A stretch of DNA of 64,000 bases from a virus. The position numbers were made by a program, and so were the translations under genes. Shown in pieces: positions 1 to 50,064 of this stretch. The notes under the pieces were generated by a model that worked only from the letters and a program-made list of their open reading frames with translations, was not told where the DNA came from and searched no databases. The DNA is taken from IMG/VR virus record IMGVR_UViG_3300013102_000005, positions 1-64,000 of that record; one strand, 5' to 3'. Position 1 is the first letter of the stretch. Each line of letters begins with the position of its first letter.

Positions 1-537
1 CACGTCGTAGCCGCCGACCTTGCTGGCGGCCTGGTGGCTGACGATGCCCAGGCGGGCCTCGTTCGAACCGATGCCGGTGGGCAGGTAGGTGGCGCCGGGG
101 AAGGCCTCGGCTACAGCGCTCAGCAGGCCCAGCTGGATCTGCTCGGGCATGTAGGAGATCTGGTTGTGATGGCCGGTGGAGCCCACGCCGTCCAGCTTGA
201 CCATACCCTTGCTATCGCCGGCCATGTTGGCGGCCTGATCCAGCGCGGCCTCCATGACGTCAGCGGTCGGCATGGCGCCGTGCTTGTCGTAGTAGAGCTT
301 CATGCCCTTGATGACGCTGTCGAGCACCTGCTCGCCGGACATCTCGCGACCGTCCAGGCGGTCGATGGCATGCTGGATGGAGGGCGGCAGGTGCTCTGCG
401 CTATCCAGGAAAGACTTGATTGCGCCTTCGCCGGAGGCGCTGTCCAAGAGCACGCCGCCCTTGGTTTCTGCATAGAGGCCGTCGAAGATTTCTTCGGTGC
501 GTGCGGCGCCTTCGGTTGCGTAAGTCGCGCGGGTCAT
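1..537 (-). CDS. Probable major capsid (head) protein, N-terminal part only
   Basis: The ATG at 537 opens a frame that runs without a stop to the window edge, so about 179 N-terminal residues are visible and the C-terminus lies outside. The sequence is acidic and soluble, has no signal peptide, and includes a PTGIGSNEARLGIVSHQAA stretch. I infer a virion structural protein, possibly the major capsid protein, from its position beyond the injected-protein block, its own leader with a terminator and a late-type TCGGAAA element upstream, and its general composition. No domain is recognised with certainty; another abundant head or tail protein is possible. Confidence 0.5.
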   Translation of the reverse strand, partial: MTRATYATEGAARTEEIFDGLYAETKGGVLLDSASGEGAIKSFLDSAEHLPPSIQHAIDRLDGREMSGEQVLDSVIKGMKLYYDKHGAMPTADVMEAALDQAANMAGDSKGMVKLDGVGSTGHHNQISYMPEQIQLGLLSAVAEAFPGATYLPTGIGSNEARLGIVSHQAASKVGGYDV

Positions 538-590
538 ATAGCCGTTCTCTCGTCTGTGAGGGATACCCAAAATCGGGATGTGGCCAATGT

Positions 591-905: not shown

Positions 906-1141
906 TAAATCATTGATCAAGGCCAGATTCGACTACATTTTATGAATATTTTTCGACGTCCTGTATTCGCGATAAATGATCTACACAGAGTTCGTTGGAG
1001 GCAACAATAAAGATGTACGTGCCTAGTCTTTGCATTACGGGCAGGCATTGCCCATAGATCTCACCCAAGGCCGCCAAATGGCTAGCCACTATAGAGATTT
1101 CGGCTAAGCTGACACCACCATGAATCGTGGGGGATGAGAAC

Positions 1142-3007
1142 ATGAATGACCAGGATCAGAAGAGAAACCAACCCGTGATGGACGTGGCGACCGTTGATGA
1201 CTTTGAACGCATCAATCTTTCGTCAATCCTTGCTATGACGAACACTCTCCACTTTCATACGCTGCAGGACGCATTCAACCGGGCAGCTCAAACTTCCAAA
1301 GAATCGGGAGATAGCGCTGCCGAACGTGGCTACAACGTGTTAGCTGTGATTTGCAGTTACCACTTTAATCCCAATAGAACTGATGCATTTAGCCCTCAAA
1401 TTATGATGGATGGTCGGAGGTCGCTAATACCGAATGACTACATTGGTGAGCAGCAGGACGTATTGATTCAAATCACAGAGCGGATTGATCATCCATTGCT
1501 AAGAGCTCGGATCGCTGATAGCTGCTGGTACACGAATAGAAAGCTTCACAGGATGGCCGAGGTAGCGTCCAGATCTTACCTTGACGCGGTGAATATGTTC
1601 TTTGCTAGAGTTCTTTTCTATCAGTACGAGTCAGATTTCGAGGTGCCGTCAAAGGTAGTTGATCTGGTTGATCGAGCATTTTCAATATACGCTTCAACCG
1701 GAAAAAGAAAATCGATTCCAGATTACGCTAAACAAACATTTTCGAAAGCTTATGAAATTGCGAAGGATAAGCTGAATATAATAGCATTCCATAGGCTTTC
1801 CTCTCTTGGGAATAATTTCGGATTGCTTGAATGGAAAGACATAGCCAAAGACGCTGAGTCAATTGCAATTGCTACTAAAGACAAACAATATGCTGAGGCA
1901 GTAAAAAAAGTTTGGCTACATGCGGCTTATGCGTATTCTAAGATAGGCGACAAAGATGCTTCCAATCAATGCAAGGTAAACGCAGTTGAGCAGACACTTA
2001 GGCTAAGGGATGCCGTCAGCTCATCTATGGCGAAAGCGTCATGGACAAGGGATGCCATTGGTGAACTTAGGTCTATAGGTGGCATGAATGATCGAATCGC
2101 CGAATTAAAATCTGAACTACAGCAATACGAGGAAGACTCGCTATCCGAATTAAGCGAGTTCAGTATACCAATAGATTTAACTGAAGAGCGACGGGCAACG
2201 ATCGAGAACTTCGAGGGCTTGGGGATTCACGAAATGCTCTACCGGTTAGCATTCGCTTCGAGACCACCAGAAAAGATTGCCCTGCATAAAAACTGTCTCC
2301 AGAAGAAAAATAAATATTTCCTATCCTCAATCGCGGGAAAAAGCTATTCCGACGAGCAGGGGAAGATGATTGCTCAATCACCATCAGCTGGTTTTAGAGA
2401 CAAACCTTCTGAAGAGTGGTTCGATCATGAGAGTCTGACAGAGGTTGGATTCCGCTATCATGTTGAAGCCGAGGCTTTCATTAAGCCCGCGTGTATCACT
2501 ATGGTTCAGAATGAGTCTATTGACGAACGACATATAGAGCCGATTGTCTACCACAGCGCGTTCATACCACCAGGACACGAGGCAATTTTCGCACTGGGTT
2601 TCGCTCGAATGATTCAAGGGGACATGGTGTCGGCTGTGCACATGCTCATTCCTCAGTTGGAAAACTCGCTCCGATACGTGCTTACTAATCGGGGACTTAG
2701 AACTGCAAAACTCAATGTTGATTTGACTCAAGAAGACCAGTCACTCAGCCAAATGTACTCAAACCGTAAAGAGGAACTTGAAAAGGCTTTTGGCCAAGAC
2801 ATTACCTACATTTTCCATCTGCTTTTCAACTTAAAGGGCGGGCCTATGCTGAGACACGAAATGGCTCACGGAAAGCTGACTATTGGTGACTGCTACAGCG
2901 CCCCATGTATCTATGCATGCTGGCTAATTTTTCACATCACCTGTCTTCCCCTCGTGAGCTTCTGGAAAACTCACATTGAGCCGGCGATCCAAGAAGTAGT
3001 TCATTGA
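1142..3007 (+). CDS. DUF4209-like protein with a HEPN-type RxxxxHG motif; probable accessory (moron) gene
   Basis: This is a 621-residue soluble, mainly helical protein. ATG 1142 is preferred over GTG 1127 because GGGGGA lies 7 nt before it. Near the C-terminus R571-H-E-M-A-H576-G577 matches the R(N)xxxHG signature of DUF4209 and the RX4-6H pattern of HEPN ribonuclease-like domains; the context, beginning about residue 512 with an LENSLRYVL segment, also fits DUF4209. The gene is on the strand opposite its neighbours and is clearly AT-rich, unlike the phage backbone, so it looks acquired. I infer a host-takeover, superinfection-exclusion or defence role. Catalytic activity is not shown by sequence alone, and the N-terminal 500 residues match nothing I recognise. 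Confidence 0.7.
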   Translation: MNDQDQKRNQPVMDVATVDDFERINLSSILAMTNTLHFHTLQDAFNRAAQTSKESGDSAAERGYNVLAVICSYHFNPNRTDAFSPQIMMDGRRSLIPNDYIGEQQDVLIQITERIDHPLLRARIADSCWYTNRKLHRMAEVASRSYLDAVNMFFARVLFYQYESDFEVPSKVVDLVDRAFSIYASTGKRKSIPDYAKQTFSKAYEIAKDKLNIIAFHRLSSLGNNFGLLEWKDIAKDAESIAIATKDKQYAEAVKKVWLHAAYAYSKIGDKDASNQCKVNAVEQTLRLRDAVSSSMAKASWTRDAIGELRSIGGMNDRIAELKSELQQYEEDSLSELSEFSIPIDLTEERRATIENFEGLGIHEMLYRLAFASRPPEKIALHKNCLQKKNKYFLSSIAGKSYSDEQGKMIAQSPSAGFRDKPSEEWFDHESLTEVGFRYHVEAEAFIKPACITMVQNESIDERHIEPIVYHSAFIPPGHEAIFALGFARMIQGDMVSAVHMLIPQLENSLRYVLTNRGLRTAKLNVDLTQEDQSLSQMYSNRKEELEKAFGQDITYIFHLLFNLKGGPMLRHEMAHGKLTIGDCYSAPCIYACWLIFHITCLPLVSFWKTHIEPAIQEVVH

Positions 3008-3073: not shown

Positions 3074-4885
3074 TTAGGGATCTGCTACAGGCACGGGCTC
3101 GACCACCGGTAGCACGCCCATCGTTGCCAGGTGCCGCTTGCGGATGAAATAGCCGCCTTCCTTGGGGAACGTGTATTCGTCGATGGCCTTAGCTTCGGCA
3201 TAGGTCACGCTGCGCAAGATAATGCCGCGAATGATCTTTCCCTTGCCGTCTTTGCCGCCCTTGGTGTGGTGCTCGACGATCTCGTGTGCGCGTGCGGGGA
3301 TTGCGGCAGGCTCGTCGCGGGATTCTTCTTGTGTGGGTTCAGGCGCGGGAGCCGCCGCTCGCTGCGCTTTGATGCGATCAGACAGGTGCTGATCAGCCCA
3401 AGCGTGGCAGTGGGCGGTAAACCCTTCATGCCAAGCTATAGCCTCGGCTGACTGAGACACGAAAGGCATCCGGCCGGCCTCGCGTTCGTATTCGGCCATG
3501 CGCTGCGGGATCCAGGCCATGTAGCCGATCTGGATCATGGTGCGGTTTTCCGGCGCCAGGTCCTCCAGGGTGTCCAGATAGGCCTGGAGCCGCTGATTGC
3601 CCGACGTCCCGCTGCCGATGGTCGCCTGCCACTGGGCCAGGTCGCGCTCGGCATTGGCTGCCAGGATGGCATCGCGCTCCGCGCGAAGGTCGTCGCGCTC
3701 GGCATCGCTCAGCTTGGTCCAGTCGCCGGTGCGCTTGGCGTAGTCGATGCGCGCCGCCGTGTCTCTGGCCTCATTCTCCGCCTTGCGCTGCCCGATCTCG
3801 GCTTGGTCTTCCTCGTAGGCCGCGACGTCCTCGGCCGCCGCCGGCCGGCCGAACACCTGAGCGAATACCTCGGGGCCATGGCGCAGCACGAAAGCCGCTT
3901 CTAGCCTGCCCAGGCTGGAGGCGATGCCCAGGGTCGTACCCTCGAAGTTGCCGCGCACGCCGATACCGCCGGAGGCGTAGTGCTCCAGCTGGGCGCCGCT
4001 GGCCAGGCGCTCGATCGCTACCGGCACGAAGGCGGCGAACCGCGCATCGCCCTTGGTCAGCCGAACACCGCCCTCGACGATCTGCGGCTTGCCGCCCAGC
4101 TCGCGCACCCGCGCGGCAATGGCTTCGGCGTCGCCCCTGAGCAATATCGCTCCACCCTTGGCATCCTCGGCGGCCGCGAAGGGCTCGCGCTGGGCGACGG
4201 GACGCACGGCGAGGATGGTGATATTCAAATCATCCTCTGCTACGCTGTTCTCAGCGGCATCCAAGGCGAAGCTCTGAATAATTGACAGGGTGGAGTCTAG
4301 GGTGCCGTTCTCGTTTCTGCGCTGCCAAGCCGGCTGGCCCGAATGGGTCAGGTTGTAGAACAGATTGCCCTGGCCATCCTCGGCCACGGTCACCCCCGCC
4401 GTGATGATCTGCCCCTCCAGCTCGATGTCCTTCTGGGCGAAGTAGAACGCCACCACGCCGTCCTCGCGCGGCTTGTAGAGCGGCTCGCGCGGGCCGTAGC
4501 TGCCCTGGACCAGGATCTCGACCAGATGCGGCACCAGTTGCGCCTTGATGGCGTCCCGGTTGAGGTTCATCCGGTACTTGCGCAGCCCCTTGCTGGACAG
4601 ACGAACCGGGCCCACCGGCGTCTGCACGACCTCGCCTTGCAGCTCGCCCTTGTAGTAGGCCATAGCCGCCTTGTAGCCATCGCCCTCGGACTCGGTCAGG
4701 TACTCAGCTAGCGACTTGCCGGCGTGGGGCGGCGCATTGATGCCCAGACGCTCCAGCAGCGCGGCGACGCGCCCGGCGATCTGGACCTTATCCAGCGGGC
4801 TGGCGCCCTCCAGCGCCTTGATCTCGGTTGCCAGCTCACCGGTAAGGCGGATCCGCTCCACCGGGCTCAAGGTGACCTTACTCAT
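3074..4885 (-). CDS. Large polyvalent-protein component (injected virion protein family)
   Basis: This 603-residue protein begins with a repeat-like helical motif (LSPVERIRLTGELATEIKAL then DKVQIAGRVAALLERLG) that also opens the 5384-7300 product. Residues about 150-190 (VVAFYFAQKDIELEG...LFYNLTHSG) resemble large polyvalent protein-associated/nuclease-like domains of phages. The C-terminal TYAEAKAIDEYTFPKEGGYF region also resembles conserved polyvalent segments. The middle is charged and coiled. It overlaps the upstream gene (stop at 4878) by 8 nt, so it is the last gene of a three-gene unit. Known relatives are packaged in heads and delivered into the cell; a nuclease or anti-restriction job here is inference. 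Confidence 0.6.
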   Translation of the reverse strand: MSKVTLSPVERIRLTGELATEIKALEGASPLDKVQIAGRVAALLERLGINAPPHAGKSLAEYLTESEGDGYKAAMAYYKGELQGEVVQTPVGPVRLSSKGLRKYRMNLNRDAIKAQLVPHLVEILVQGSYGPREPLYKPREDGVVAFYFAQKDIELEGQIITAGVTVAEDGQGNLFYNLTHSGQPAWQRRNENGTLDSTLSIIQSFALDAAENSVAEDDLNITILAVRPVAQREPFAAAEDAKGGAILLRGDAEAIAARVRELGGKPQIVEGGVRLTKGDARFAAFVPVAIERLASGAQLEHYASGGIGVRGNFEGTTLGIASSLGRLEAAFVLRHGPEVFAQVFGRPAAAEDVAAYEEDQAEIGQRKAENEARDTAARIDYAKRTGDWTKLSDAERDDLRAERDAILAANAERDLAQWQATIGSGTSGNQRLQAYLDTLEDLAPENRTMIQIGYMAWIPQRMAEYEREAGRMPFVSQSAEAIAWHEGFTAHCHAWADQHLSDRIKAQRAAAPAPEPTQEESRDEPAAIPARAHEIVEHHTKGGKDGKGKIIRGIILRSVTYAEAKAIDEYTFPKEGGYFIRKRHLATMGVLPVVEPVPVADP

Positions 4886-5387
4886 TGCCCACCTCCGCCA
4901 GGATCTCGGAGGCCAAAGCCACAGCGGCCTCCTCCTCGGCCTCGGTATCGAACGCCACCAGCGGCACCAACTGGATGACGCGCTGCGCCATCTGCACCAG
5001 GGCGCCCTCGGGGGCGTATTCGCGCATCTGCCTGAGCAGGCGGGTCAATTCCTGCTCCGGGCTTTCCACGCCGTCCAGCACCAGGGCCTGGCCATCCTCA
5101 TCGTCGAGATCGTCCAGCAGCATGGCGGCGAGCGCGTCGGGATCCATGGTCACGGTGACGCCGTACTCGCGCGACTGGCAGAAGCCGTAAAGCTCGCCCG
5201 GTTCGAGGGTATCGGCCGACAGCCGTTCGCCGGCGGCGCCGACGACCATCTGGAGATCCATGTAGGCGCGGAAGTAGGCGAGGGCGCTGGCGTCGCCCTG
5301 GTAGGACACAGGCTTGGCTTCGTCCTCGTCCCAGAGTGCCAGGAACTGGCCGTGTGGGGTGGCAACGGTGTATTGGGTAGAGATCAT
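4878..5387 (-). CDS. Small acidic protein in the polyvalent operon
   Basis: This is a 169-residue acidic protein (MISTQYTVATPHGQ...). ATG 5387 overlaps the TGA of the upstream metallopeptidase gene as ATGA, and its own stop overlaps the next start, so translation of the three genes is probably coupled. The sequence has many Asp/Glu residues (for example LLDDLDDEDGQALVLDG) and a C-terminal helix. I do not recognise a family. Its position between two proteins that share an N-terminal motif suggests it works with them, perhaps as a co-packaged or inhibitory partner; this is inference. Confidence 0.7.
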   Translation of the reverse strand: MISTQYTVATPHGQFLALWDEDEAKPVSYQGDASALAYFRAYMDLQMVVGAAGERLSADTLEPGELYGFCQSREYGVTVTMDPDALAAMLLDDLDDEDGQALVLDGVESPEQELTRLLRQMREYAPEGALVQMAQRVIQLVPLVAFDTEAEEEAAVALASEILAEVGNE

Positions 5388-7300
5388 TGCTGCTGCGCTC
5401 CCAGCACGGACTGCGCCCTTTCCAGCAGGGCCTTGACGGGGTCTTTGTTGAAGCGGGTAGAGATCACGTTCTGCCAGGTCTTGCGCATGGAGCTGCCCTG
5501 GGTGTGGGCGATCACCATGAAGGCCTTCACCAGTTCGAGGTCGCCGTGGATGGCCGAAAAGTCGGGTATGTAGAGGCGGGCGCCGTCTTCGGTCGTGACC
5601 AGGTAGCCCTTGGCGTTGCGCTGCGTGTTTTGGTTGCGGAACACGCCCTGGAAGACGTGCATGTCTTGCCAGCCACCCAGGTAGGTCGGCACCTTGCCGC
5701 GCACGAAGGCGTAGCGGCCAAAGTGGCTGGCATCCTCGGCCCGCTCCGCCTGCAAGCGGTCCCACCAGCCGTCCACCGTCAGAGTCACCTGCTTGGCCAG
5801 GATGGCGACGGTCTCGACATAGAGCTTGCCGTCCTCTTCGCGCCGCTCCTGGAGCATGTCCACGGCGACCGTGTGCAGACCCAGCTTGGCCCGCATCGCT
5901 GGCGTCAGCTCGCTGGCCAGGTAGCCGGAGATCAGCGCGAACATTTCGGGATCCTTTGCGGCGAACAGCGCCGCATCCCTGGGGTTGGCCAGGTACTGGA
6001 CGCCCATGGAGAACACTTCGGTGATGCCGTCGGGGTAGATCTTGCCGATGTAGGGGTTCAGCCAGCTGTCCTTGTAGGCGACCTCGTCCTTGCGGTACTT
6101 CTTGTTGTCGGTGAGCCCGCGCAGGGAGTAGGCCATCCCGTCCTCACGTCGGCGCACGAGGAAGCCGTTGGCGGCCGCCTTTGCGATAGGGTCGTTTTCG
6201 AGGTGGTGCGCCAGCTCGTGGAACAGGACGGTGCGATCAAAGCGCGAACCGACGTTCACGACCTTCTCCCCCAGGCGCGTGGAGACGCCCACGGCGTTGG
6301 CGCGGCTACCGCCGTCCACGGAGATCCGCACCGCCGAAGACTTGCCACCGGTGAGGCGGTAGAAGTCGGCCATGTCCCGCAGCAGCGACTCACGGGTGTA
6401 GCCGCCACGTTCGAGCTTGGCCACCGCCTTGGCGTCCAGGATCTGCGTCGCGGCCCAGGCCTCGGCCTGCTCCTGGGTCACGGGCGATGCTTCGCGCAGC
6501 GCCGTCAGGATGGCTTGCCCTTCGTCTTCGAAAACGGCTTGGCTGCGCTTGAACTTGGCCTCATCGAAGGCGCGAGCAACGGCCAGGGCCTGATCCTTCA
6601 AGGGCTTGCGATCTTTCTGGTATCGCTCCCAGAGAACCGCCTCCTCCTCTTGGAGCTGGCGCAGCTCGGCATCGTCGCCGCCGTCCTTCACCAGCCGGCC
6701 AGCAGCCCGCAACTTCGGGTTGAGGACGTCCACAGCGGCCTGCATGGCATCGTCCAAGGCCTTGAGGGCGACCAGCGCCGCTTGCATCGCGGGATCGTCG
6801 TGCGCCGACTGCTTGAGCAGCTCCTTGGCTTCGGCCTCCTTGCGCAGCACGGTGGCGGCATCGATGCCGGTATCCACGCCCCTTGCCGAGATCTCCTCGT
6901 AGGCGGCCAGGTTGGCGATGTCGCGCTTGGGGCCCCAGACCCCTTCCAGGGCGATGTCGTTGGCGCGAGCGTCCAGGGTCTTGGAGCCGACCGTGCTGGC
7001 CAGCTCCGACACCGTCATGGCCTCGAACGGGACCAGGGCCTCGGGCAGCTGCTCCAGACCATCGTCCAGGTACTGCTCCAGCGCCTGGGTGGAGCCGGCC
7101 ACATCGGTCAGGGAAAACGCGATGGCGCGCATGGCGGTCTTGATGCCGGCGCCCAACTGCTCCAGCAGCTTGGCCACGACACCGGCGATACGCACGCGCT
7201 CTAGGGCAGGGAGTTCGCCCTCCAGGGAGCGAACATTTTCAGCGAGTTCGCCTGATAGGCGCACTCGATCAAGCGGAGAAATGGCGTCCAGAATTTCCAT
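5384..7300 (-). CDS. Polyvalent protein with HExxH zinc metallopeptidase domain
   Basis: This 638-residue protein has residues 1-50 (SPLDRVRLSGELAENVRSL, then ERVRIAGVVAKLLEQLG) that duplicate the N-terminus of the 3074-4885 product. A long helical, charged middle (150-300) leads to a zincin domain: HELAHH at 361-366, with the likely third ligand Glu in GITEVFSMG near 428. These motifs are typical of the metallopeptidase modules of phage polyvalent proteins, which travel in the virion and act in the host at the start of infection. Substrate unknown. It is first in its unit, preceded by a late-type element at 7367 and a terminator at 7379-7402. Confidence 0.75.
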   Translation of the reverse strand: MEILDAISPLDRVRLSGELAENVRSLEGELPALERVRIAGVVAKLLEQLGAGIKTAMRAIAFSLTDVAGSTQALEQYLDDGLEQLPEALVPFEAMTVSELASTVGSKTLDARANDIALEGVWGPKRDIANLAAYEEISARGVDTGIDAATVLRKEAEAKELLKQSAHDDPAMQAALVALKALDDAMQAAVDVLNPKLRAAGRLVKDGGDDAELRQLQEEEAVLWERYQKDRKPLKDQALAVARAFDEAKFKRSQAVFEDEGQAILTALREASPVTQEQAEAWAATQILDAKAVAKLERGGYTRESLLRDMADFYRLTGGKSSAVRISVDGGSRANAVGVSTRLGEKVVNVGSRFDRTVLFHELAHHLENDPIAKAAANGFLVRRREDGMAYSLRGLTDNKKYRKDEVAYKDSWLNPYIGKIYPDGITEVFSMGVQYLANPRDAALFAAKDPEMFALISGYLASELTPAMRAKLGLHTVAVDMLQERREEDGKLYVETVAILAKQVTLTVDGWWDRLQAERAEDASHFGRYAFVRGKVPTYLGGWQDMHVFQGVFRNQNTQRNAKGYLVTTEDGARLYIPDFSAIHGDLELVKAFMVIAHTQGSSMRKTWQNVISTRFNKDPVKALLERAQSVLGAQQQ

Positions 7301-7366
7301 ACACGCGCGGCGCTCATAGTTACGATGCGCGATGATGGAGCCGGCGCGGGACGCGGCCTGGCTGGA

Positions 7367-7374
7367 CTTTCCGA
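7367..7374 (-). promoter_or_regulatory. Late-type element TCGGAAAG
   Basis: Minus-strand TCGGAAAG lies about 70 bp upstream of the metallopeptidase ATG at 7300 and just past the terminator of the preceding unit, where a new promoter would be expected. Confidence 0.4.
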
Positions 7375-7378
7375 AGGC

Positions 7379-7402
7379 AAAAAAAGACCCGCCGAAGCGG
7401 GT
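7379..7402 (-). terminator. Rho-independent terminator
   Basis: Minus-strand ACCCGC, loop TTCG, GCGGGT is followed by C and a run of seven T. This is a textbook hairpin ending the 9692-7404 transcript. Confidence 0.9.
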
Positions 7403-7403
7403 G

Positions 7404-7505
7404 CTACAAAGGGTTGCGCATCCGTGCGCCAGTCACCACACAGGAAGCCATGGCCTCTGTGCGATAGGTGAAGCCCTCGCGGAGCGAGGAGATCGAGTCG
7501 AGCAT
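7404..7505 (-). CDS. Possible 33-residue small protein
   Basis: ATG 7505 opens a 33-codon frame (MLDSISSLREGFTYRTEAMA...) ending in TAG two bases before a strong terminator. It starts 33 bp after the stop of the 7539-9692 gene. I see no convincing ribosome binding site, so translation is uncertain. The perfect fit between stop codon and terminator is the main argument for it. Confidence 0.35.
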   Translation of the reverse strand: MLDSISSLREGFTYRTEAMASCVVTGARMRNPL

Positions 7506-7538
7506 ATCAGATGGCCAGCCGGAGCGGCGAACCGCGTA

Positions 7539-9692
7539 TCAGGCAGCGGTTGCCTTGGCTACGACGGCCGCCGAGTAGGCTTCAGCGGCCTGCTCGAACA
7601 GGTTCAGCAGGTCGGCATTGCCGTGGATCTGCTCATAGACCTGGGTCAGCGTCTGGGCCAGGGCCGGATCGGTCATGTCCTCGTTCCCGTCGATCACCGA
7701 TTGCAGCAGCGCGCGGGCGGCCTCCAGTTCGTCTGACACCACCGCTGCTGGGTCAGGCTGCACGGCCACAGTCTCTGGCACCGCAGGCATGGCAGCTACG
7801 GCCTTCGCTACCAGGGGCGGCACGATCTCGGCGAACTGCTCCGGCTGCCACGGCGCGACGTCGAGCTTATCCAACCCCTGGGCATCTACGCGGTAAAGCA
7901 TCAGGAACCGTCCATTGGCGGAGACCCGCAATTCGAAGCCTTGGCCGTCCGCGCGCACCGCCCGGAACTGGTCGGGAGCCGATTCGACAACGGTAAAGTC
8001 CTCGGGAAGTGCGGCGCGCGCCACGTCGTTCAGGAGCAAGGGGGTTGCCTGGCCCTCGGCGGTTGGCTCGGGCACGGCTACCGTTTCCACGCTCGCGTTC
8101 AGCTGGGTAGCCAACTGCTCGGGTGTGAGGGTGAGATCGTCCAGCACCTTGGTGGTGCCGTCGTCCACGAGCCAGGTCACCGCTACGACATTGGCACCCG
8201 CGCCCACGTTGCGGGTCTGGTGGCGCACGCTGTGATAGGAACCATCGACCACCTTCGTCAGCTCGATAGTGCGCAGCGGGCCGCCCCAGCCCAGGTCGCG
8301 CAGGGCATTGCGCACGGCGACGATGCGGCCAGCGAAAAAGCTGTCCAGCGCGTCCTGGTGCGCACGCTGGAGGCGGTCGTCGGCCAGCACCTGGGCATAG
8401 CCTTCCGGGCTCAGCGGATCGAACTGGCCAGGCGTGCGGCCGCTGGTATCGACCGCGCCTTGTTCGTCGCCAGGCTGGACGGCCTGGGTGTTGCGCTTGG
8501 CCTGCACCTGGGTGGTCAGGTCCTCGATCTCCGCTTCCAGGGCCTGGAGCTCCTGCTCTTTGCTGGCCACCTGCTGACGGCTGTCCTCGATCGCCTGCAT
8601 GCGCTGCGCCCGGCCCTCGTTGGCCTTCTGGAATCGCGCGCTGTTCTTCTCGGCCAGACGCATGATTCGCCGCGCCACTTCGCGCGGGTTGAGGTCCAGG
8701 CCCTTCTCGGGCGCCACCAGGATGGTGATGTCCATCTTGTTGAGCATCCACTTCCAGCTAACCAGCTCATCGGTCGGCAGGATCCTGTCGGGGGTGGCGT
8801 CAGGGTTGTGAAACCAGATGGCCACGCTCTGTCCATCGCTCAGCTCATAGACCGCGCAGATGTTGGTGGTGCCGCGCTGCTTGAACGGCTCGGTGACCTG
8901 CAAGGCAACCGGCTTCACCTTGTCGCCGGCGCTGTCCATGATCCGCTGGAGCTGCTCCATCTTGATCTGGAGCTTGGAGCTGATCACCACCATGGCATCG
9001 AGCGCCTCGAAGCCATCGGCGTCCTCCATGATGTCGGCGATGGTGCAGGCGTCCAGCAGCAGGTCGGCATCATCGGCCCGGCGAAGGCCGTAGATCAGGC
9101 CTGCCAGATTGGCCTCGACCGGCATCGCGGCGCTGTCCCAAGAAATGGTGCTCATGTCGTTCTCGCTATCGAAGGGCAGCGCCGCAGCGCTGAAGGGGAT
9201 GGAGTGGTCGCCGTATTTCAGCCACCAGCGAAACTGGCCCAGGGTGGCGCCGATGATCGCGCCCAGGCCCTGCCAGCCACGCTCGTAGCTGCCCAGATAG
9301 GCCTGGCGCGCGGAGTCCTCGTCGGTGAACCCCAGCATCACCTTGTGCTCGTCGAAGCCACCGCTACGGCTGTTCTGGTTCACCACGAACACGCGCGTCG
9401 ATTCCGGCACCGGCCCGACGAATACGTCCACCGGATCGCCGTCGGCCCCGCGCGTACCGGTGATGTCGCCATAGTGGGCCTGCATCACCACCGACCAGGG
9501 CTTGCCATCCTGCTTGCCGATGCGGTGCTGGCCCTTGGGCGTCTCGATGGCGATTGGCAGCCCATGGAGCTGGAGGCGCCCCTTGCGGTAGTTGCCGGCC
9601 TGGAGCTGGGCGGGTGTGGGATGCGCGCTGGAGCCATGGCCCAGTGCCCCGGCATGGGCGCCGCGCTGGATTGCCGAGTAGAGGTCTGTCAT
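7539..9692 (-). CDS. Polyvalent virion protein: pyrophosphatase-like (InPase) plus DarA N-terminal-like domains
   Basis: This is a 717-residue modular protein. Residues about 30-160 form an inorganic-pyrophosphatase-like module (AGNYRKGRLQLHG, then GADGDPVDVFVG at 82-93, matching the class I PPase DGDPxD signature, and FDEHKVMLGF). Residues about 240-350 (VYELSDGQSVAIWFHNPD, LVSWKWMLNKMD, REVARRIMRLAEKNSARF) resemble the 'defence against restriction A' N-terminal domain of phage P1 DarA. A coiled coil (350-410) and an unassigned C-terminal half follow. P1 Dar proteins are packaged internally and protect incoming DNA from restriction; a similar role here is likely but inferred. A late-type element lies 45 bp upstream. 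Confidence 0.75.
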   Translation of the reverse strand: MTDLYSAIQRGAHAGALGHGSSAHPTPAQLQAGNYRKGRLQLHGLPIAIETPKGQHRIGKQDGKPWSVVMQAHYGDITGTRGADGDPVDVFVGPVPESTRVFVVNQNSRSGGFDEHKVMLGFTDEDSARQAYLGSYERGWQGLGAIIGATLGQFRWWLKYGDHSIPFSAAALPFDSENDMSTISWDSAAMPVEANLAGLIYGLRRADDADLLLDACTIADIMEDADGFEALDAMVVISSKLQIKMEQLQRIMDSAGDKVKPVALQVTEPFKQRGTTNICAVYELSDGQSVAIWFHNPDATPDRILPTDELVSWKWMLNKMDITILVAPEKGLDLNPREVARRIMRLAEKNSARFQKANEGRAQRMQAIEDSRQQVASKEQELQALEAEIEDLTTQVQAKRNTQAVQPGDEQGAVDTSGRTPGQFDPLSPEGYAQVLADDRLQRAHQDALDSFFAGRIVAVRNALRDLGWGGPLRTIELTKVVDGSYHSVRHQTRNVGAGANVVAVTWLVDDGTTKVLDDLTLTPEQLATQLNASVETVAVPEPTAEGQATPLLLNDVARAALPEDFTVVESAPDQFRAVRADGQGFELRVSANGRFLMLYRVDAQGLDKLDVAPWQPEQFAEIVPPLVAKAVAAMPAVPETVAVQPDPAAVVSDELEAARALLQSVIDGNEDMTDPALAQTLTQVYEQIHGNADLLNLFEQAAEAYSAAVVAKATAA

Positions 9693-9733
9693 GCCCTCAT
9701 CATGAGGGCGCGACTTACCTCGAATGAGGGGTC

Positions 9734-9741
9734 ATTTCCGA
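9734..9741 (-). promoter_or_regulatory. Late-type element TCGGAAAT
   Basis: Minus-strand TCGGAAAT lies between the terminator at 9753-9775 and the ATG of the polyvalent gene at 9692, 42 bp upstream of it. Confidence 0.35.
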
Positions 9742-9752
9742 ATTGCGGATAC

Positions 9753-9775
9753 AGAAAGGCCGCCCGAAGGCGGCC
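9753..9775 (-). terminator. Rho-independent terminator
   Basis: Minus-strand GGCCGCC, loop TTCG, GGCGGCC is followed by TTTCTG. The seven-base-pair stem with a stable tetraloop ends the transcript carrying the genes at 9797-10909. Confidence 0.85.
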
Positions 9776-9796
9776 CGGTGTGGCTATGCCACAAAA

Positions 9797-10027
9797 TCAG
9801 GCAGAGGCGGCTTGGCCTCCGCGACGAGTCTGCTTTTTCTTCGCAGATACAGGCCCGGCGAGCGGGCCAGCGGGCTCTAGTTCAACACCCCGCGCAGCGG
9901 CTACAGCAAGCATCTGCCGCTGCGACATGCTGACAGTGCCAATTCGAGCCTCGGCGTAAGCTCGCAGCTCCGCCATTTTCTTCTCTTTGGTGGCCTTCGC
10001 GGCCTTCTGTCTATCGAGTCGGGACAT
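9797..10027 (-). CDS. Small basic Lys/Arg-rich protein
   Basis: This is a 76-residue basic protein (MSRLDRQKAAKATKEKKMAE... ending KKKQTRRGGQAASA). ATG 10027 is chosen over GTG 10033 because GGAGG lies about 6 nt upstream of it. Basic ends and a helical middle suggest nucleic-acid or protein binding, but no family is recognised. It is the last gene before the terminator at 9753-9775. Confidence 0.65.
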   Translation of the reverse strand: MSRLDRQKAAKATKEKKMAELRAYAEARIGTVSMSQRQMLAVAAARGVELEPAGPLAGPVSAKKKQTRRGGQAASA

Positions 10028-10054
10028 ACGCACCTCCAGTAGATAGATTGCCTA

Positions 10055-10600
10055 TCATCCTACGGCCAGGTCGATGGGCTTGACAAGCTCGTTGTCTTGG
10101 TTGTAGTCGAATCCCAAATCTTTATAGAGGCGAACGACGCCAGGCAACGGCTGGGGAATGAGGATGCTCGGTAGATCGATTAGCTTCGCGTAGTCCTCTA
10201 CGGCCGTGATCATCATTGCGGCCACAAACCCCTTGAGGGGGTGCGATGCGTCAGGATGCCCCTCCACAAGCATCAGCTTGATTCGGAACTTGCTTCTTTT
10301 GGGCGTAGCAAAGCAGAGCCCACACAGGGTCTGGCCGTGCCATAGCGAGAGACTGATGGCCTTCGGGTGCCCTCTACCGCGCCTCGGCACGTCCAGCCAC
10401 TGGTCTTTGAAGTAGCTATGAGACCAGTCGTTCATCCGCTTGAGTGCGTTATGGTCGATGCTGTCATAGCGGATCAATTCGGGCGAAATGACCTTCTTCA
10501 CCACAGCTGGATCCTGCTGGATCTTTCGCTGCGTGATTTCACGAGAAATTATCGCTATCTCTCGATAATGCTTACGCACGTTGCGCGGTCGTTCTGCCAT
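10055..10600 (-). CDS. GNAT-fold N-acetyltransferase-like protein
   Basis: This is a 181-residue protein. The central LSLWHGQTLCGLCFATPKR strand pair, an acetyl-CoA-loop-like LVEGHPDASHPLKGFVAAMM helix, and the C-terminal VRLYKDLGFDY motif, which resembles the terminal strand-helix of GNAT enzymes, support the call. The target is unknown. It sits between a small basic protein and an operator-controlled gene. The assignment rests on motif shape rather than a strong family match; a catalytically inactive GNAT is possible. Confidence 0.55.
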   Translation of the reverse strand: MAERPRNVRKHYREIAIISREITQRKIQQDPAVVKKVISPELIRYDSIDHNALKRMNDWSHSYFKDQWLDVPRRGRGHPKAISLSLWHGQTLCGLCFATPKRSKFRIKLMLVEGHPDASHPLKGFVAAMMITAVEDYAKLIDLPSILIPQPLPGVVRLYKDLGFDYNQDNELVKPIDLAVG

Positions 10601-10636
10601 CCCTGTACCCCTTTCTGCATAGCGACACAGTCTGGC

Positions 10637-10909
10637 TTAGCAGCGGACCACTTCCAATAGCACCCATGGCTGATAGCCAGCCTTGCGAGCGGCCTTCTCG
10701 GCGTTCATGCGCGCCTCAAATTCGCTGATGGTGTCGTCCTCGTGCTCGAAGCGGTAGCAGATGCCGCCGCCAGGCTTGCGCACTGAGAGCACGACCTTGA
10801 TGCGCGGGCGCCGCTGTCCGTTGGTGCGCACGACGGGTTTCGCGGACGGGAGGGGAATCGGAAGGCCCAGGGCCTCGCGCATCATGGTTTCGGTGAGCAT
10901 CACTTGCAT
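10637..10909 (-). CDS. Small hypothetical protein, first gene of a divergent pair
   Basis: This is a 90-residue protein (MQVMLTETMMREALGLPIPL...) with a basic middle and an IKVVLSVRKPGGGICYRFEH beta-like segment; no family recognised. ATG 10909 fits the start because a strong promoter (-35 TTGCGG, 18 bp, -10 TATAAA) with an embedded 12-bp operator ends just upstream. The longer frame to 10993 would place the start inside the promoter. Likely regulated by the factor that binds the palindrome family. Confidence 0.65.
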   Translation of the reverse strand: MQVMLTETMMREALGLPIPLPSAKPVVRTNGQRRPRIKVVLSVRKPGGGICYRFEHEDDTISEFEARMNAEKAARKAGYQPWVLLEVVRC

Positions 10910-10937
10910 GGGAGCGTCCTGCTTGAAGAGTGATAAA

Positions 10938-10967
10938 TTTATAGCACCTGCTAAAATAATCCCGCAA
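10938..10967 (-). promoter_or_regulatory. Sigma70-like promoter for the 10909 gene
   Basis: Minus strand: TTGCGG (10967-10962), an 18-bp spacer, TATAAA (10943-10938). The palindrome TAGCACCTGCTA fills the end of the spacer, so protein bound there would block or reshape the promoter. The -35 is identical to that of the XRE regulator gene. Confidence 0.6.
10942..10953. promoter_or_regulatory. 12-bp operator TAGCACCTGCTA
   Basis: This is a perfect member of the TAGCA-NN-TGCTA family, lying in the intergenic region between divergent genes starting at 10909 (minus) and 11015 (plus), so it could control both. Confidence 0.6.
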
Positions 10968-11014
10968 GCTATTTGCTCTTCATCCCAGATCAAGCCCGTG
11001 CAAGGTGCCGTCGC

Positions 11015-11503
11015 ATGTCCGATCAGAAAGACCCCAATCTACAGCTGTTCCACGTGAGCATTGCGGGCCACTACGGGCCGCCGGTGACCTTGGCCTGCTC
11101 CATCGTCGAGGACACAAACGTCTTGGTCATCGCCCGAGAGGAACCGTTCAAAGAGCGGCGTGATGCGGGATATGCGCTGATCACCAATCAGGACTTGCCG
11201 GAGCGTGACTGGCTGTTCGCCGACGATCATGTTCGAGACTCCATCAATAGCTTCTTCGCCCGGACATCCCGAAGCACCATCGCCATCGTCAATAGCCTTC
11301 AGCGGCATTCACCAGCGCAGGGGATCCAGAAGGACAGCTTTGACGAGCACGGACCTCGGTATCGCCTGATACGAGAAATCACCAATGGCCAGATAGCCGT
11401 GCTAGCTGCTTGCGGATTTGCCGACATCCAGTCCAGCGTCATCCTGGCCCAGTCGCTGGCCGACGACTTTATGGACCTCTACGACATCTACACGATCTCC
11501 TGA
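11015..11503 (+). CDS. Hypothetical protein on the plus strand, divergent from 10909
   Basis: This is a 162-residue acidic soluble protein (MSDQKDPNLQLFHVSIAGHY...). ATG 11015 has AAGGTG about 8 nt upstream; the longer frame from 10973 overlaps the promoter region. Contains ALITNQDLPERDWLFADDHV and a C-terminal helix SSVILAQSLADDFMDLYDIY. I recognise no family. It is one of only three plus-strand genes, and codon use looks ordinary for the phage, unlike the two AT-rich inserts. A divergent partner facing away from an operator often encodes a regulator or a countering activity, but nothing in the sequence proves that. Confidence 0.7.
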   Translation: MSDQKDPNLQLFHVSIAGHYGPPVTLACSIVEDTNVLVIAREEPFKERRDAGYALITNQDLPERDWLFADDHVRDSINSFFARTSRSTIAIVNSLQRHSPAQGIQKDSFDEHGPRYRLIREITNGQIAVLAACGFADIQSSVILAQSLADDFMDLYDIYTIS

Positions 11504-11548
11504 CAGCAGAAGGCCCGCACACGGCAGGCCTCATTCATCATCTGTCAT

Positions 11549-11580
11549 ACGGATGACGTCATGGGTCATTCCTCATCCGT
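11549..11580. promoter_or_regulatory. Inverted repeat ACGGATGA...TCATCCGT with embedded ATGACGTCAT palindrome
   Basis: An 8-bp inverted repeat (11549-11556 with 11573-11580) overlaps the 10-bp palindrome ATGACGTCAT (11553-11562). It lies between the convergent stops at 11503 and 11605, so it may be a bidirectional terminator-like hairpin or a protein site. There is no T-run. Confidence 0.35.
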
Positions 11581-11604
11581 GTGAGGTCAGAACCCTCGTA
11601 GTCG

Positions 11605-12372
11605 TCACGCGGCATGCTCGATCTCCTCCCCGAGCTTAGCCAGGGCGGCCCGGAACGACTCTGCGTTGCGCTCACACAGCTCGGCCTGCTCTTCTTCACC
11701 CTCGGCGCGCCAGATGGGCGCGTTAGTCTCGACGCTGTGCAGTGCGATTCCCAGCACCGTCCGGGCGGACTCCAGTTCGGCGCTATCGAGCATTTCCCCT
11801 GCATCCAGGCGGACCAGCAGCGCATCAGCCTGCTGATCGTTCACGGCATCGAGGACCAGCATCGGTGCCTCACCGGCGCCGGCATCGTCCAGGGCAATGC
11901 CGAGTTCAGTTCGCAGGTTGTCACGGGTAGTCCTGGCTTCCAGGATGCGCTGGTCCAAATAGGTCACGCGCTCGGCCAGCGCTTGCTGGAGACGTGGAGC
12001 GGCCGTGCGAACGGACTTCGGTAGCTCAGCCCTTTGCCTGGCCAGCATGGCCTGGAACCGTTTTTCGTTGGCGCGCGCGGCGGCAGCGATCTCGGCCACG
12101 GCTTCCAGACCGCTCTGGTTCTTGATCGGCAGGTCGCGCTTGTTGAGCAGGACGCGGAAGATGTCGCCGGTCTGCTTCACTTGGAGCGCGATGGTCTGGC
12201 CGCTTGCCAGGGTCAGCAGCGCCTGGCGGAAGCTGATACCGGCACGACGCTGGACGCGCGGATCGAACGAGGTTTGCGCCACTGGCTGGCCAGCCCGCAG
12301 CATGGCCTGGCTGACGCGCTTGAGCGAGCGCTGGGCGTCGCTGGGATTGTCGAAGTCGAACAGAAGATCCAT
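11605..12372 (-). CDS. Dar/polyvalent-like accessory virion protein
   Basis: This is a 255-residue protein. Its N-terminal half has SFDPRVQRRAGISFRQALLT, SGQTIALQVKQTGDIFRVLL and DLPIKNQ, a pattern I associate with small proteins linked to phage polyvalent/DarA-type modules; the C-terminal half is a long coiled coil (about 95-150) and an acidic helical tail. It lies between the spike gene and the InPase/DarA-like gene, which supports a packaged-protein role. The family name is uncertain and no catalytic residues are evident. Confidence 0.5.
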   Translation of the reverse strand: MDLLFDFDNPSDAQRSLKRVSQAMLRAGQPVAQTSFDPRVQRRAGISFRQALLTLASGQTIALQVKQTGDIFRVLLNKRDLPIKNQSGLEAVAEIAAAARANEKRFQAMLARQRAELPKSVRTAAPRLQQALAERVTYLDQRILEARTTRDNLRTELGIALDDAGAGEAPMLVLDAVNDQQADALLVRLDAGEMLDSAELESARTVLGIALHSVETNAPIWRAEGEEEQAELCERNAESFRAALAKLGEEIEHAA

Positions 12373-19500: not shown

Positions 19501-20723
19501 GCGCCGCCCACATAGCCGATCTCGAAGCGGGCATTGGTCGCCGTCGCCGGCTGCCACAGCACGGTGTCGCTGTTGATGTAGGCCCAGCCGTTGAGCGTGG
19601 TTGTGCCGTTGACGGTGAGGTTGTTGCTCAGCGTCGCAGCACCCGCCAGCGCCAGCGAGCCCGCCATGTTGACCGTGCCGGTGAAACTGGGCGAAGCCAG
19701 GGGCGCCTTGAGCGCCAGCGCATTGGTCATCGTGGCGGCGAAGTTGGGATCGTCGCCGATGGCGTCGGCCAACTCGTTCAGGGTGTCGAGCGCCCCCGGC
19801 GCCGAGTTGATCAGGTTGGCGATGGCCGTGGACACGAAGGCCGTCGAGGCGGCCAGGGTCGTATTGTTGCCGACGGCCTGGGTGGGCACGTTGAGTGCGC
19901 CGGTGACCGTGGCACTGGCGAGGGTGGCCAGGCCTGCGACGCTCAGGGTGCCGGACAGGACCGCAGCGCCGGCGACCGACAGCGAGCTTTTCAGGGCGGC
20001 GGCGCCGTTGACCGTGATCGCCGCGAGGGTGGCCATGCCGGCCACCGCCAGGGTGCCTGCCATGCTGACGGGGCCGGTGAACGACGGCGCCTCCACCGGC
20101 GCGCGGGTGGTATCGGTCGGGTGGACGTGATCCTCGCGCGCGAATCGCTTGCTGGCGCCGACCTTGCTGGTGCCATCCATCAGCGGCTGCGCGGTGCCGC
20201 CGTAGTTGCTATCGACCGTCGAGATCAGCACGTAATTGGGGTGCGGATTGGTCGCGGCCTCGTGTGCCGCGAGCATGGCGAGCACCAGGGCCGAATCAGG
20301 ATCCACAGAGACGGTCAGGCTGCTGGAAGGCAGCTGGTCGAAACTGATGTCGTTGACCAGGACGAACGCCACGCCACTGGTCTTGCTACCCAGGGGCCCG
20401 GTGGTGCGGCTCCAGACGGCGAAGAGCACGTTGCCCGCCCAGAACGCCACCTCATTGATGGTCCCGGTGCTGGTGTCCGCCGGCCAGACGCTGGTCATGC
20501 GGATCTGGTTATTGGTCACGCGGGCGCTGGAGCCTACCTTGACCCGCTTGATCTCCTTGACCAGAGCGGTTTCTTTGCCGGTGGGTGTGTAGGCGCCAGT
20601 GCCGAACGATACGGCATCCAGCGTCAGCGCCAGTCCGTTATTGCTGGCAGCCAGCGCGGCGGCCTTGCCTGCGTCGGTGATGGTCGGGATGAACACGACC
20701 GATTGCGGGGTGGATGTAGCCAT
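16506..20723 (-). CDS. Long tail fibre with collar N-terminus and glycine-rich tip
   Basis: This is a 1405-residue protein; ATG 20723 begins MATSTPQSVVFIPTITDAGK, the N-terminal tail-collar fibre domain (about 1-165) that attaches to the baseplate. A long beta-rich shaft follows with repeated AGAAVLSGTLSVAGLATL-type units. Residues about 1200-1405 are a Gly-rich domain (many GGGGG runs, ending GMPGFLMIQY) like the polyglycine receptor-binding tips of phage adhesins. Two segments of the shaft are duplicated (nt about 19170-18775 and 18300-17865), each with RWNL-x-G-x-AP and PGKYLR motifs. Host range is probably set by the tip. The start is upstream of the assembly partner at 15908. Confidence 0.85.
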   Translation of the reverse strand: MATSTPQSVVFIPTITDAGKAAALAASNNGLALTLDAVSFGTGAYTPTGKETALVKEIKRVKVGSSARVTNNQIRMTSVWPADTSTGTINEVAFWAGNVLFAVWSRTTGPLGSKTSGVAFVLVNDISFDQLPSSSLTVSVDPDSALVLAMLAAHEAATNPHPNYVLISTVDSNYGGTAQPLMDGTSKVGASKRFAREDHVHPTDTTRAPVEAPSFTGPVSMAGTLAVAGMATLAAITVNGAAALKSSLSVAGAAVLSGTLSVAGLATLASATVTGALNVPTQAVGNNTTLAASTAFVSTAIANLINSAPGALDTLNELADAIGDDPNFAATMTNALALKAPLASPSFTGTVNMAGSLALAGAATLSNNLTVNGTTTLNGWAYINSDTVLWQPATATNARFEIGYVGGAATSPYIDFHSGATVADFDSRLMAGGGDGTSGGGFLSVRARCFALGTTTSSSVALYIRTDNQLTSSNYGVYFASVWDPTVATTQGIAFASRPAIADTAGTIGFTYGFQSTAPTFNGANAAIGEHMHFQATAVGSTAIGKAFGFRGQLNRVDGKDRWNLFADGTAPNHMMGNLLIGTTADIGGNLQVVGQANVQGSGNAWTMTIQDTGANGATLKMVGNGSATPGKYLRVKDGSFQIINSAYGATIFSLNDNGSGQFAGEVQTTAINSYRQVYGNYGTFWRNDGSNLWLMLTSANDQYGGYNALRPFRVNLADGTVTFGHAVTVAANASVSGTFQAGNVAAFAGAPIASSVSLNVGPRGYATAAMTGTSQRGVNVQLNYGPDCTSTANDFRAYSSIGDGSTSATLGQHIGYVQEPLAIGSNQLVTNHTSYLANDQPLVALANAYGFYGSMNTVSGKNRWNLYMGGSAPNYLAGKVLIGTATDDGSGSMLQLNGNMMSINTSGNVKSLLIRDEGAQGAAIQLYGNGSTPGKYLRSKGGNFEVVNSAFNSVLLTLTDAGFLTTASGATFNGNANVTGTFAVKGQTTLSDGGFVFTTNSLAITPSGMNAGIELGDTRGGSATTPFLDWHSGATAVDYDFRMLASGGDGTVGNGTMTFTGNAFYVNAWTTLNRPTTISYGSGSAYLNINGVSGNYRHLRLSTAGTVRWDVGATNDAESSGNVGSNFYVNRFADDGSYLDTPFAIIRSTGLVNVGQMAIATTITMPTQARTDSSTKGATTAFVRDAISVKGVSVRFVANGTWTCPAGVTQIYVSACAGGGGGAGGGGYGQTYGAGGGGGGGAGTFLIMHPLTVTPGMTYTIGIGAGGNAGTGGTSGNGGNSGVSGGSTTMKNSNGNDMFSPLVGGAGATGGSLTSGAGGIGGYYGGEDGGDARGAGLGGDGGSGGSGPFGTAGGGGRAGNNYGVASKPGLGYGCGGGGGGASWQSSGDGGNGTAGMPGFLMIQY

Positions 20724-20804
20724 GCGGTCCTCGTGGGCGCCAAAAAGGGCAGGCGCGGCCGAGGAGGCCACGCCTATGCTGCGCCTATTCTGCGAGGGCC
20801 GTTA

Positions 20805-20836
20805 CACCCCTTCGGCCGAGGCTTTCCGAAGGGGTG
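20805..20836. terminator. 11-bp GC hairpin enclosing a late-type element
   Basis: CACCCCTTCGG (20805-20815) pairs perfectly with CCGAAGGGGTG (20826-20836). It lies between the SGNH gene stop (20843) and the fibre start (20723). The late-type element CTTTCCGA (20822-20829) straddles its loop and stem. There is no T-run. Confidence 0.5.
20822..20829 (-). promoter_or_regulatory. Late-type element TCGGAAAG
   Basis: This minus-strand copy lies about 100 bp ahead of the tail fibre ATG and is partly inside the hairpin at 20805-20836. Confidence 0.35.
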
Positions 20837-20842
20837 CCGGGG

Positions 20843-22153
20843 TCAGTAGGTGACCTTGAGGGCGCCGGTCTTGCCGAACCAGATGGTGCAGTCCACGTCC
20901 CGCGAAGGGCTCACGGTGATGGTGAGTCGCAGGCGGACCAGGGTCAGACCGGTCGCGGTGAGGAAGACCAGCAGCGGGGTCTCGAAGGGCAGGGGCCCCA
21001 GGTTTTCGCTTGGGTAGGGCAGGCTGGAATCGGACTCATCGCCGTCGAGCTTCTGGGTGTAGCCGGGCACCAACATGAGGTTGAGGCCGATGGCCGAGAG
21101 GCCTACGCCCTGACTGATCACGAGGCCGGACGCTTTGAGCTTGTCATTGTTCGCCAGGCTAGCCAGCGGCACGTCCAGGTAGGCGCTGACCTCGGCGGGA
21201 CTGCTGGTAGCGATCCCCTTGATGCGCAGCTTCTGGTAGCTGACGCCGTTCAGGGTTTCCTTGGACCAGGTGGTGGTCAGGCCGCTGATACTGCCGCTGG
21301 TGAGCTCGGCGATCCAGCCGTCAGCCAGCACTGAGCCTGCCACTGGCGCGCAGCTGGCATAGATCGAGCCGCCGGTGCCCGCCACCAGGGGATTAGGGGT
21401 GAGCGAGCCCTTGGGGTTGGAGGTGGCGTTGAACACCACGTTGGACTCGGCGAGATCCGGCAGGCCCCGGCACCAGGCCGCGACGATCTTGCCCACCACG
21501 CGCCCAGCGACCATCGCGCCGATCTTGCTGGGATGGATCCAGTCACGCACGACGCTGGCCAGGGGGTAGTAGTTGGTCCCGCTGGCGGGATCGACCCAGT
21601 AGTCCCAGACGTTGGCCACCGCGCACATCTGACTCATGACCCTCTCGATCCAGACGTGCATCGCGTAGTGGTCGGCCTTCTGCGCGGCGGTGAGCTCGTA
21701 GCTGCTGGAGCCATTCCCGCGCGGCGTCTCGCTTATCAGGATCACGTCGATGCCAGCGATCTGGAAATTGCGCACGATCTCGCGCAAGTTGCGCTGGCTG
21801 GTGCCCAGGTCGATACCGGCGGGGCGGTCGTTGGTCGAGCCCCAGACCACCACCAGGTTGACGCCCGCCGCCTTGAGCGTGGCGATATAGGCGGCCTGGC
21901 GGACGAGCATCTGGGCGGTGGTGTCGCCGGCGACGCCGCCGTTGTAGGCCACCGGTGCGGAGCAGGCGCCGTTGCTGAACTTCTGCACCCAGCCCATGAG
22001 GCCCCAGGTCTTGAGATAGTCGTTGGCGCCGGAGCCCGACCAGGAGAGGAAAATCCGGCTATCGCCAAAGCCGCCGATGGTGCGGTTACGCGGTGTGGCG
22101 CGGACGAAGCCCAGTCGGTTGAGGGCTGCGGTGAGTTCGAGGGTGTCGGCCAT
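20843..22153 (-). CDS. SGNH/GDSL-type hydrolase, tail-fibre locus esterase
   Basis: This is a 436-residue protein. Block I GDS with Ser32 (GGFGDSRIFL), block III WGSTND (Asn105), and block V DWIH (Asp201, His204) give a complete SGNH catalytic set in residues 25-210. The C-terminal half is a beta-rich domain (about 225-436) probably for trimerisation or attachment. Such enzymes in fibre loci remove acetyl or other ester groups from surface polysaccharide. Located between the gpI-like gene and the long fibre, so it is likely a virion enzyme. Substrate is inferred. Confidence 0.75.
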   Translation of the reverse strand: MADTLELTAALNRLGFVRATPRNRTIGGFGDSRIFLSWSGSGANDYLKTWGLMGWVQKFSNGACSAPVAYNGGVAGDTTAQMLVRQAAYIATLKAAGVNLVVVWGSTNDRPAGIDLGTSQRNLREIVRNFQIAGIDVILISETPRGNGSSSYELTAAQKADHYAMHVWIERVMSQMCAVANVWDYWVDPASGTNYYPLASVVRDWIHPSKIGAMVAGRVVGKIVAAWCRGLPDLAESNVVFNATSNPKGSLTPNPLVAGTGGSIYASCAPVAGSVLADGWIAELTSGSISGLTTTWSKETLNGVSYQKLRIKGIATSSPAEVSAYLDVPLASLANNDKLKASGLVISQGVGLSAIGLNLMLVPGYTQKLDGDESDSSLPYPSENLGPLPFETPLLVFLTATGLTLVRLRLTITVSPSRDVDCTIWFGKTGALKVTY

Positions 22154-50052: not shown

Positions 50053-50064
50053 CATCAGGTGCTA
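50053..50064. promoter_or_regulatory. Operator CATCAGGTGCTA
   Basis: One mismatch (first T is C). It overlaps the TAG stop of the helicase gene. Confidence 0.45.

Follow-up and report, generated by a model that had tools for sequence, protein, structure and literature searches.

A P1-type Dar cassette without DarB and Ulx in a virus genome, and a DdrA-like hairpin as a probable loading tag for its cargo proteins

The virus record IMGVR_UViG_3300013102_000005 (IMG/VR) carries, near its major capsid protein gene, a group of genes related to the Dar (defence against restriction) system of phage P1. The window analysed here comprises bases 1-64000 of this 93,777-base record, and the genes in question lie at positions 3074-12372. 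By domain content and gene order, the region is a P1-type Dar cassette that contains neither DarB nor Ulx. Two of its proteins begin with a common motif of about 45 residues, which the initial annotation, made from the sequence alone, had listed as a mere resemblance. The comparisons described below suggest that this motif is the key element of the region and probably serves as a loading or docking tag.

The cassette is arranged as hdf, InPase-darA, zincin, a small gene and an LPD3 cargo gene; one convergent gene separates it from the capsid gene. The order hdf ... darA - zincin - cargo agrees with the hdf-darA-ddrA-ddrB operon of P1 and with the corresponding region of Xanthomonas phage Rb1 (PQ569993), the closest named phage. 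Relatives normally show InPase-darA first and then zincin, small domain, cargo, darB and ulx. The three main open reading frames (ORFs) were found where the initial annotation had put them, at 3074-4885 (603 amino acids), 5384-7300 (638 amino acids) and 7539-9692 (717 amino acids), all on the minus strand. Its proposal of a Dar-type set in a morphogenetic region is borne out by domain matches to InPase, DarA_N, Hdf, LPD3 and zincin, the first two and LPD3 being recognised in hidden Markov model (HMM) searches with Pfam.

The 717-residue protein joins a pyrophosphatase-like module to a DarA N-terminal-like module, as had been predicted. Both Pfam matches are above cut-off: InPase at residues 28-159 (9216-9611; E 7.7e-51), where the soluble pyrophosphatase-like acidic motif DGDPVDV can be read off the sequence, and DarA_N at residues 230-351 (8640-9005; E 1.5e-39). 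Carrying two domains of this kind, the protein falls within the definition of polyvalent proteins, which asks for at least two unrelated conflict domains per polypeptide. It is 44% identical over 574 amino acids to the Rb1 internal head protein. The full-length DarA equivalog of NCBIfam (NF052326, anti_RE_DarA) is matched with 79.2 bits over residues 278-402 only, against a cut-off of 350 bits. The region ends with an Hdf homologue of 255 amino acids (11605-12372, minus strand) bearing a DarA_N-type domain (Pfam 7.8e-16). It matches the PHROG family of Hdf-like antirestriction proteins (4.9e-33) and shows 42% identity to the Rb1 Hdf-like protein over 153 amino acids. The capsid of phage P1 is lined, at its penton-hexon junctions, with 55 DarA-Hdf pairs that leave the head together with the DNA, and the loss of DarA or Hdf leaves every other Dar protein unpackaged (PMC12810830). 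From this homology, packaging of the present proteins in the head and their ejection with the DNA would be expected.

The 638-residue protein is, judged by its sequence relatives, a zincin metallopeptidase akin to the peptidase part of P1 DdrB. It matches PHROG 20397 (1.9e-41), PHROG 2299 (4e-13) and P1 ddrB; no Pfam domain was found above cut-off. The zinc-binding motif HELAHH at residues 361-366 (6203-6220) is invariant in the alignments of relatives, and HExxH together with a distal Glu is conserved throughout 17 of them. The ddrB-ParB domain found in P1 DdrB was not detected in this zincin, which does not qualify as a full DdrB. For the DdrB peptidase of P1, a role in processing proteins ahead of packaging has been suggested (PMC5512222). 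The AlphaFold2 (AF2) model, with a predicted local distance difference test (pLDDT) score of 88.6, contains two N-terminal helices (residues 9-27 and 32-57) that span the shared motif. A Foldseek comparison of this model with the PDB gave nothing below E 0.001, the long helices yielding meaningless matches.

Downstream, the zincin gene overlaps by 4 bp a small minus-strand gene (4878-5387, 169 amino acids), which was unnamed in the initial annotation and which overlaps the LPD3 gene by 8 bp. The first ~90 residues of its product are similar to the N-terminal ends of the Rb1 DarB-like protein and of cargo proteins from relatives. In the 603-residue cargo protein, LPD3 at residues 72-177 (4355-4672; Pfam 1.6e-11) is the only domain recognised, and residues 200-600 are without assignment. 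Its AF2 model (pLDDT 46.5) is interpretable only for two N-terminal helices. The protein is 59% identical over its first 515 residues to a 1368-residue protein of the viral contig L072, in which the LPD3 protein, an insert and a methyltransferase domain are fused (1,322-1,368 amino acids); no complete DarB occurs in L072. L009 and L010 also have the LPD3 domain, inside their DarA proteins. A single 612-residue protein of L068 unites the small domain, the N-terminal motif, LPD3 and a C-terminal tag discussed below. The cassette had been described as a split version of modules that are fused elsewhere. This description holds for the small gene and LPD3, which form one protein in L068, and for LPD3 with regard to the methyltransferase fusion of L072. 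As a general oddity it does not stand, as the InPase-DarA fusion is normal in this phage group and the Dar genes of P1 are also separate.

Neither DarB nor Ulx was detected in the complete genome by tblastn and profile search. In the DarB search, only the N-terminal ~85 residues of Rb1 DarB match this genome, as the small gene, whereas L067, L069, L074 and L090 give full-length DarB matches in the same profile search. A separate DdrA gene is also missing from this phage, the DdrA hairpin being present only in fusion with the zincin and the LPD3 protein. A stand-alone SNF2-type helicase of 612 amino acids is encoded on the minus strand at 50062-51900, in the replication/early region. It was ruled out as a displaced DarB, as it lacks a methylase part and its helicase similarity is only weak. 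In P1, protection against EcoB/EcoK has been linked to DarB along with Ulx and DdrB. The plain anti-restriction kit suggested by the initial annotation is not supported in that form, and since DarB and Ulx are absent, a restriction phenotype is not to be assumed.

The absence of both genes from the whole genome could also mean that the cassette is decaying, the remaining proteins serving head assembly only and the LPD3 protein (603 residues, against 1,368 in L072) being the truncated remnant of a larger fusion. The reading frames are all intact, however, and the genes overlap in an operon-like manner. Moreover, the DarB-less state recurs in L066, where no DarB was found in the whole record by profile search and no Ulx at the locus by tblastn, and where the slot ahead of the capsid gene, occupied here by the LPD3 protein, holds a different, intact LPD1 cargo protein. 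Decay of the cassette is quite unlikely on this evidence.

The motif common to the zincin and the LPD3 protein, here called the N-tag, occupies residues 6-50 of the former (7151-7285) and residues 5-48 of the latter (4742-4873). Its reality was confirmed by an alignment score of 121, compared with 25±5 in 5,000 shuffles (maximum 51). Compared without the tag, the two proteins are not significantly similar (best BLAST E 1.2). Neither Pfam nor NCBIfam offers a model of the N-tag or of the C-terminal tag; the searched main-text passages of Iyer et al. 2017 (PMC5512222) do not mention these terminal tags. A profile built from the two motifs of this phage detected the module in L066 as well, where the zincin and the adjoining cargo protein likewise carry it. 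An iterated HMM run against 32,204 ORFs from 173 sources gave 69 matches, namely 22 in zincins, 19 in DarB proteins, 18 in cargo proteins with the small domain and 10 elsewhere (in further cargo proteins, in DdrA-like ORFs standing alone and in one distant Rb1 ORF). The profile might drift on iteration, but the first-round profile already matches DdrA of phage D6 (E 5e-6 for 20 sequences). Whole-genome searches were carried out with a fixed alignment. Among 33 whole phage records they returned 41 matches, nearly all in ORFs with the lengths of cassette proteins; two weak ones fell in frames of 79 and 143 amino acids. Up to three different proteins are tagged per genome, and about 11 of the 33 records hold two or three. 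The 150 whole bacterial genomes searched, all from one order, yielded a single match, an ORF directly downstream of a darA gene.

The N-tag is, on the sequence comparisons, the N-terminal half of DdrA. DdrA of the Escherichia coli phage D6 aligns with the two tags of this phage with scores of 61-62 (shuffles 22±4.5), and P1 DdrA with the tag of the LPD3 protein with a score of 45 (shuffles 20.8±4.2, p 0.0002). The PHROG DdrA family is matched by the N-terminus of the L166 DarB (4.7e-6) and by an ORF of L088 (1.3e-4). In P1, DdrA is a confirmed virion protein (PMC9024508). Two further observations concern Rb1. An unannotated ORF between its darA- and ddrB-type genes (PQ569993, 55467-55943; L003, 13968-14444) bears the DdrA hairpin and probably represents the missing ddrA of Rb1. 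A second hairpin ORF (7079-7573; E 2.5e-4) lies far from the Dar cassette, and its product is a possible new candidate for an injected protein.

The relationship with DdrA raises the question of whether the hairpin acts as an effector, for example an antagonist of type I restriction, added to several injected proteins that are loaded by other signals. Such a role would agree with the listing of P1 DdrA as an EcoA antagonist (PMC9024508, table) and with the occurrence of the hairpin in stand-alone DdrA-like ORFs. An effector should nevertheless not need the two or three copies that a genome can carry on different proteins, and a further C-terminal part of P1 DdrA, of about 70 residues, could hold the activity. 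In addition, the hairpin of many DarB proteins sits at the N-terminus, where P1 DarB has its targeting signal. An effector function is unlikely in view of these points.

N-tags group by phage lineage and not by carrier protein. Hairpin similarity is 0.51 between zincin and cargo of the same genome and 0.11 between zincins of different lineages, although the zincins themselves are 31-46% identical across lineages. The loading-tag reading predicts such lineage-matched hairpins, because a loading tag would have to fit a lineage-specific receptor. Covariation of tags on different proteins would likewise be expected if the hairpins bound each other, as an oligomerisation or cargo-cargo docking element in a stepwise DdrA-DdrB-DarB assembly making no contact with the capsid or the DarA/Hdf scaffold. 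The Dar proteins of P1 do enter stepwise, DarB being aided by DdrB and Ulx (PMC9024508). Some genomes, however, have one tagged protein only (e.g., G018 and G022-G028), which leaves it without a tagged partner, and docking among cargo proteins appears a rather doubtful explanation. The similarity could also have arisen incidentally, through duplication or recombination at the starts of genes, free of any selected function, as the cassette is strongly mosaic and LPD3, small and C-tag modules move between proteins. This is very improbable, since the hairpin has been kept over large divergence and on many protein types, at the N-terminus or between domains, where a neutral remnant would vanish.

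A second tag, of about 50 residues, is found at the C-terminus of DarA (C-tag, residues 660-709; 7566-7715, minus strand) and is common to the Dar cargo proteins of relatives. Its search gave 79 matches: 77 stop no more than 13 residues short of the C-terminus, one stops at 17 and one at 206. Both tags occur together on ten cargo proteins. The lineage matching seen for the N-tag is not claimed for the C-tag, as the DarA C-tags of group B (FLAAAAAGNVDFYDKG...) are unlike the cargo C-tags (AFLNSVISGNADMWAD...). The C-tag profile did not detect this module in the small gene of the present phage. In L072, an 897-residue LPD1 protein with an N-tag is inserted between darA and the zincin gene (7312-10005). 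The small gene product ends in ~60 residues that share 63% identity with the C-terminus of this other tagged protein, which suggests a further exchangeable C-terminal module.

Taken together, the cassette can be read as a P1-type Dar set without DarB and Ulx in which the hairpin acts as a loading tag for cargo, and this reading is considered probable. As in P1, the Hdf homologue and InPase-DarA would line the inner face of the prohead. The zincin and the LPD3 protein would be the cargo, each headed by a DdrA hairpin that docks varied proteins onto the capsid-lining DarA/Hdf scaffold. Docked cargo would thereby get into the head and exit with the DNA. The C-tag on DarA and on cargo proteins may belong to the same docking. 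In P1, head entry of DarB depends on an N-terminal signal in the first 30 residues; the authors of that study suspected a common packaging signal on Dar proteins, and their BLAST searches gave no consensus (PMC9024508).

Several points weigh against the hairpin as a loading tag. DarB and DdrB of P1 are without the hairpin, and its likeness to the P1 capsid-targeting signal is one of position only, with no sequence match. Many relatives, such as L079, L099 and L100, show no tag above threshold. The lineage clustering rests on three lineages, and local duplication or recombination could produce it without a shared receptor. Finally, the EcoA entry for P1 DdrA would also fit a hairpin that is an effector instead. 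A shared N-terminal signal of P1 DarB and DdrB themselves is not claimed, this pair being not significant (p 0.31) and the D6 pair marginal (p 0.004). The first ~40 residues of DarB and DdrB in D6 (L178) are alike at that level and may point to another kind of common signal among phages of the P1 group.

Compared with the P1 system (Hdf, DarA, DdrA, DdrB, DarB and Ulx), the cassette has in common the Hdf and DarA_N proteins, a prohead protease, the head-linked context, the DdrA hairpin and a DdrB-type zincin placed, as in P1, downstream of darA. It differs in the lack of DarB, Ulx, a separate DdrA and the ddrB-ParB domain, in the N-terminal InPase of DarA, in the added LPD3 cargo gene and small gene, and in the sharing of the DdrA hairpin by two cargo proteins. 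The Rb1 region is alike in its Hdf-like protein, its InPase-DarA with C-tag and its 637-residue zincin, and the capsid, portal, terminase and other structural genes are homologous at ~30-45%. Rb1 differs in having a 2,238-residue DarB-like protein with the small-gene domain fused on, an Ulx-like gene and the separate, unannotated DdrA-like ORF. The phage-type polyvalent proteins described by Iyer et al. 2017 (PMC5512222) contain InPase, DarA_N, LPD3, LPD1 and zincin domains in several combinations, whereas here the domains are mostly in separate, overlapping genes. The capsid targeting sequence of the phage T4 internal proteins offers a parallel in idea: a short N-terminal element sends unrelated proteins into the head, but in T4 it is a short peptide and here a helical hairpin of ~45 residues.

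A perfect 123-bp direct repeat at the two ends of the record (window 1-123, record 93655-93777) shows that the genome behind the window is circular and completely assembled (93,654 bp, ~93.65 kb), though it is listed without completeness. Its G+C content is 64%. The proteins of capsid, portal-type connector, terminase, prohead protease and baseplate, among several others, are roughly 30-45% identical to those of Rb1. Nearer relatives are the viral contigs L066-L074, and the nearest of all is L072 (DarA 63%, capsid 60%, baseplate spike 80%). Relatives also lie inside bacterial genomes of Neisseriaceae, Nitrosomonas, Nevskia, Sphaerotilus and Acinetobacter. A megablast search of the cassette against the phage collection gave no close DNA relatives. 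The LPD3 protein as lone query against viral contigs found no confirmed relatives, which surfaced only through the zincin search. The N-terminal part of the major capsid protein gene (1-570, minus strand) continues over the contig junction to 92503; in the circularised genome its product is 42% identical over 529 amino acids to the Rb1 counterpart. Three small minus-strand ORFs between hdf and darA (9797-10033, 10055-10600 and 10637-10993; together 9797-10993) are of uncertain membership in the cassette. A Pfam search of the three gave no match, and the second matches PHROG 4350 weakly (3.9e-6). In the same interval, a plus-strand gene (10973-11503) is 31% identical to Rb1 20705-21208 (E 3e-17). 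Between the cassette and the capsid gene, the plus-strand gene at 1127-3007 encodes a 626-residue DUF7380/DUF4209 protein matching the PADLOC candidate defence family PDC-S39 (E 4e-103), and is perhaps a phage-borne defence gene.

With a candidate of ~45 residues common to cargo proteins, DarB and DdrA in many phages, the question of the Dar packaging signal becomes directly testable. A wider proposal, whose chances we judge to be evenly balanced, is that Dar-type phages load injected proteins by a few exchangeable terminal tags, the N-terminal DdrA hairpin and the C-terminal DarA-type module. The N-tags would evolve in concert within each lineage, and any protein acquiring a tag would become injectable cargo. 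If this is true, the tags would provide a simple way to find unrecognised injected phage proteins, and the cargo behind the DarA/Hdf scaffold would be exchangeable, with DarB in some phages and LPD1 or LPD3 proteins in others.

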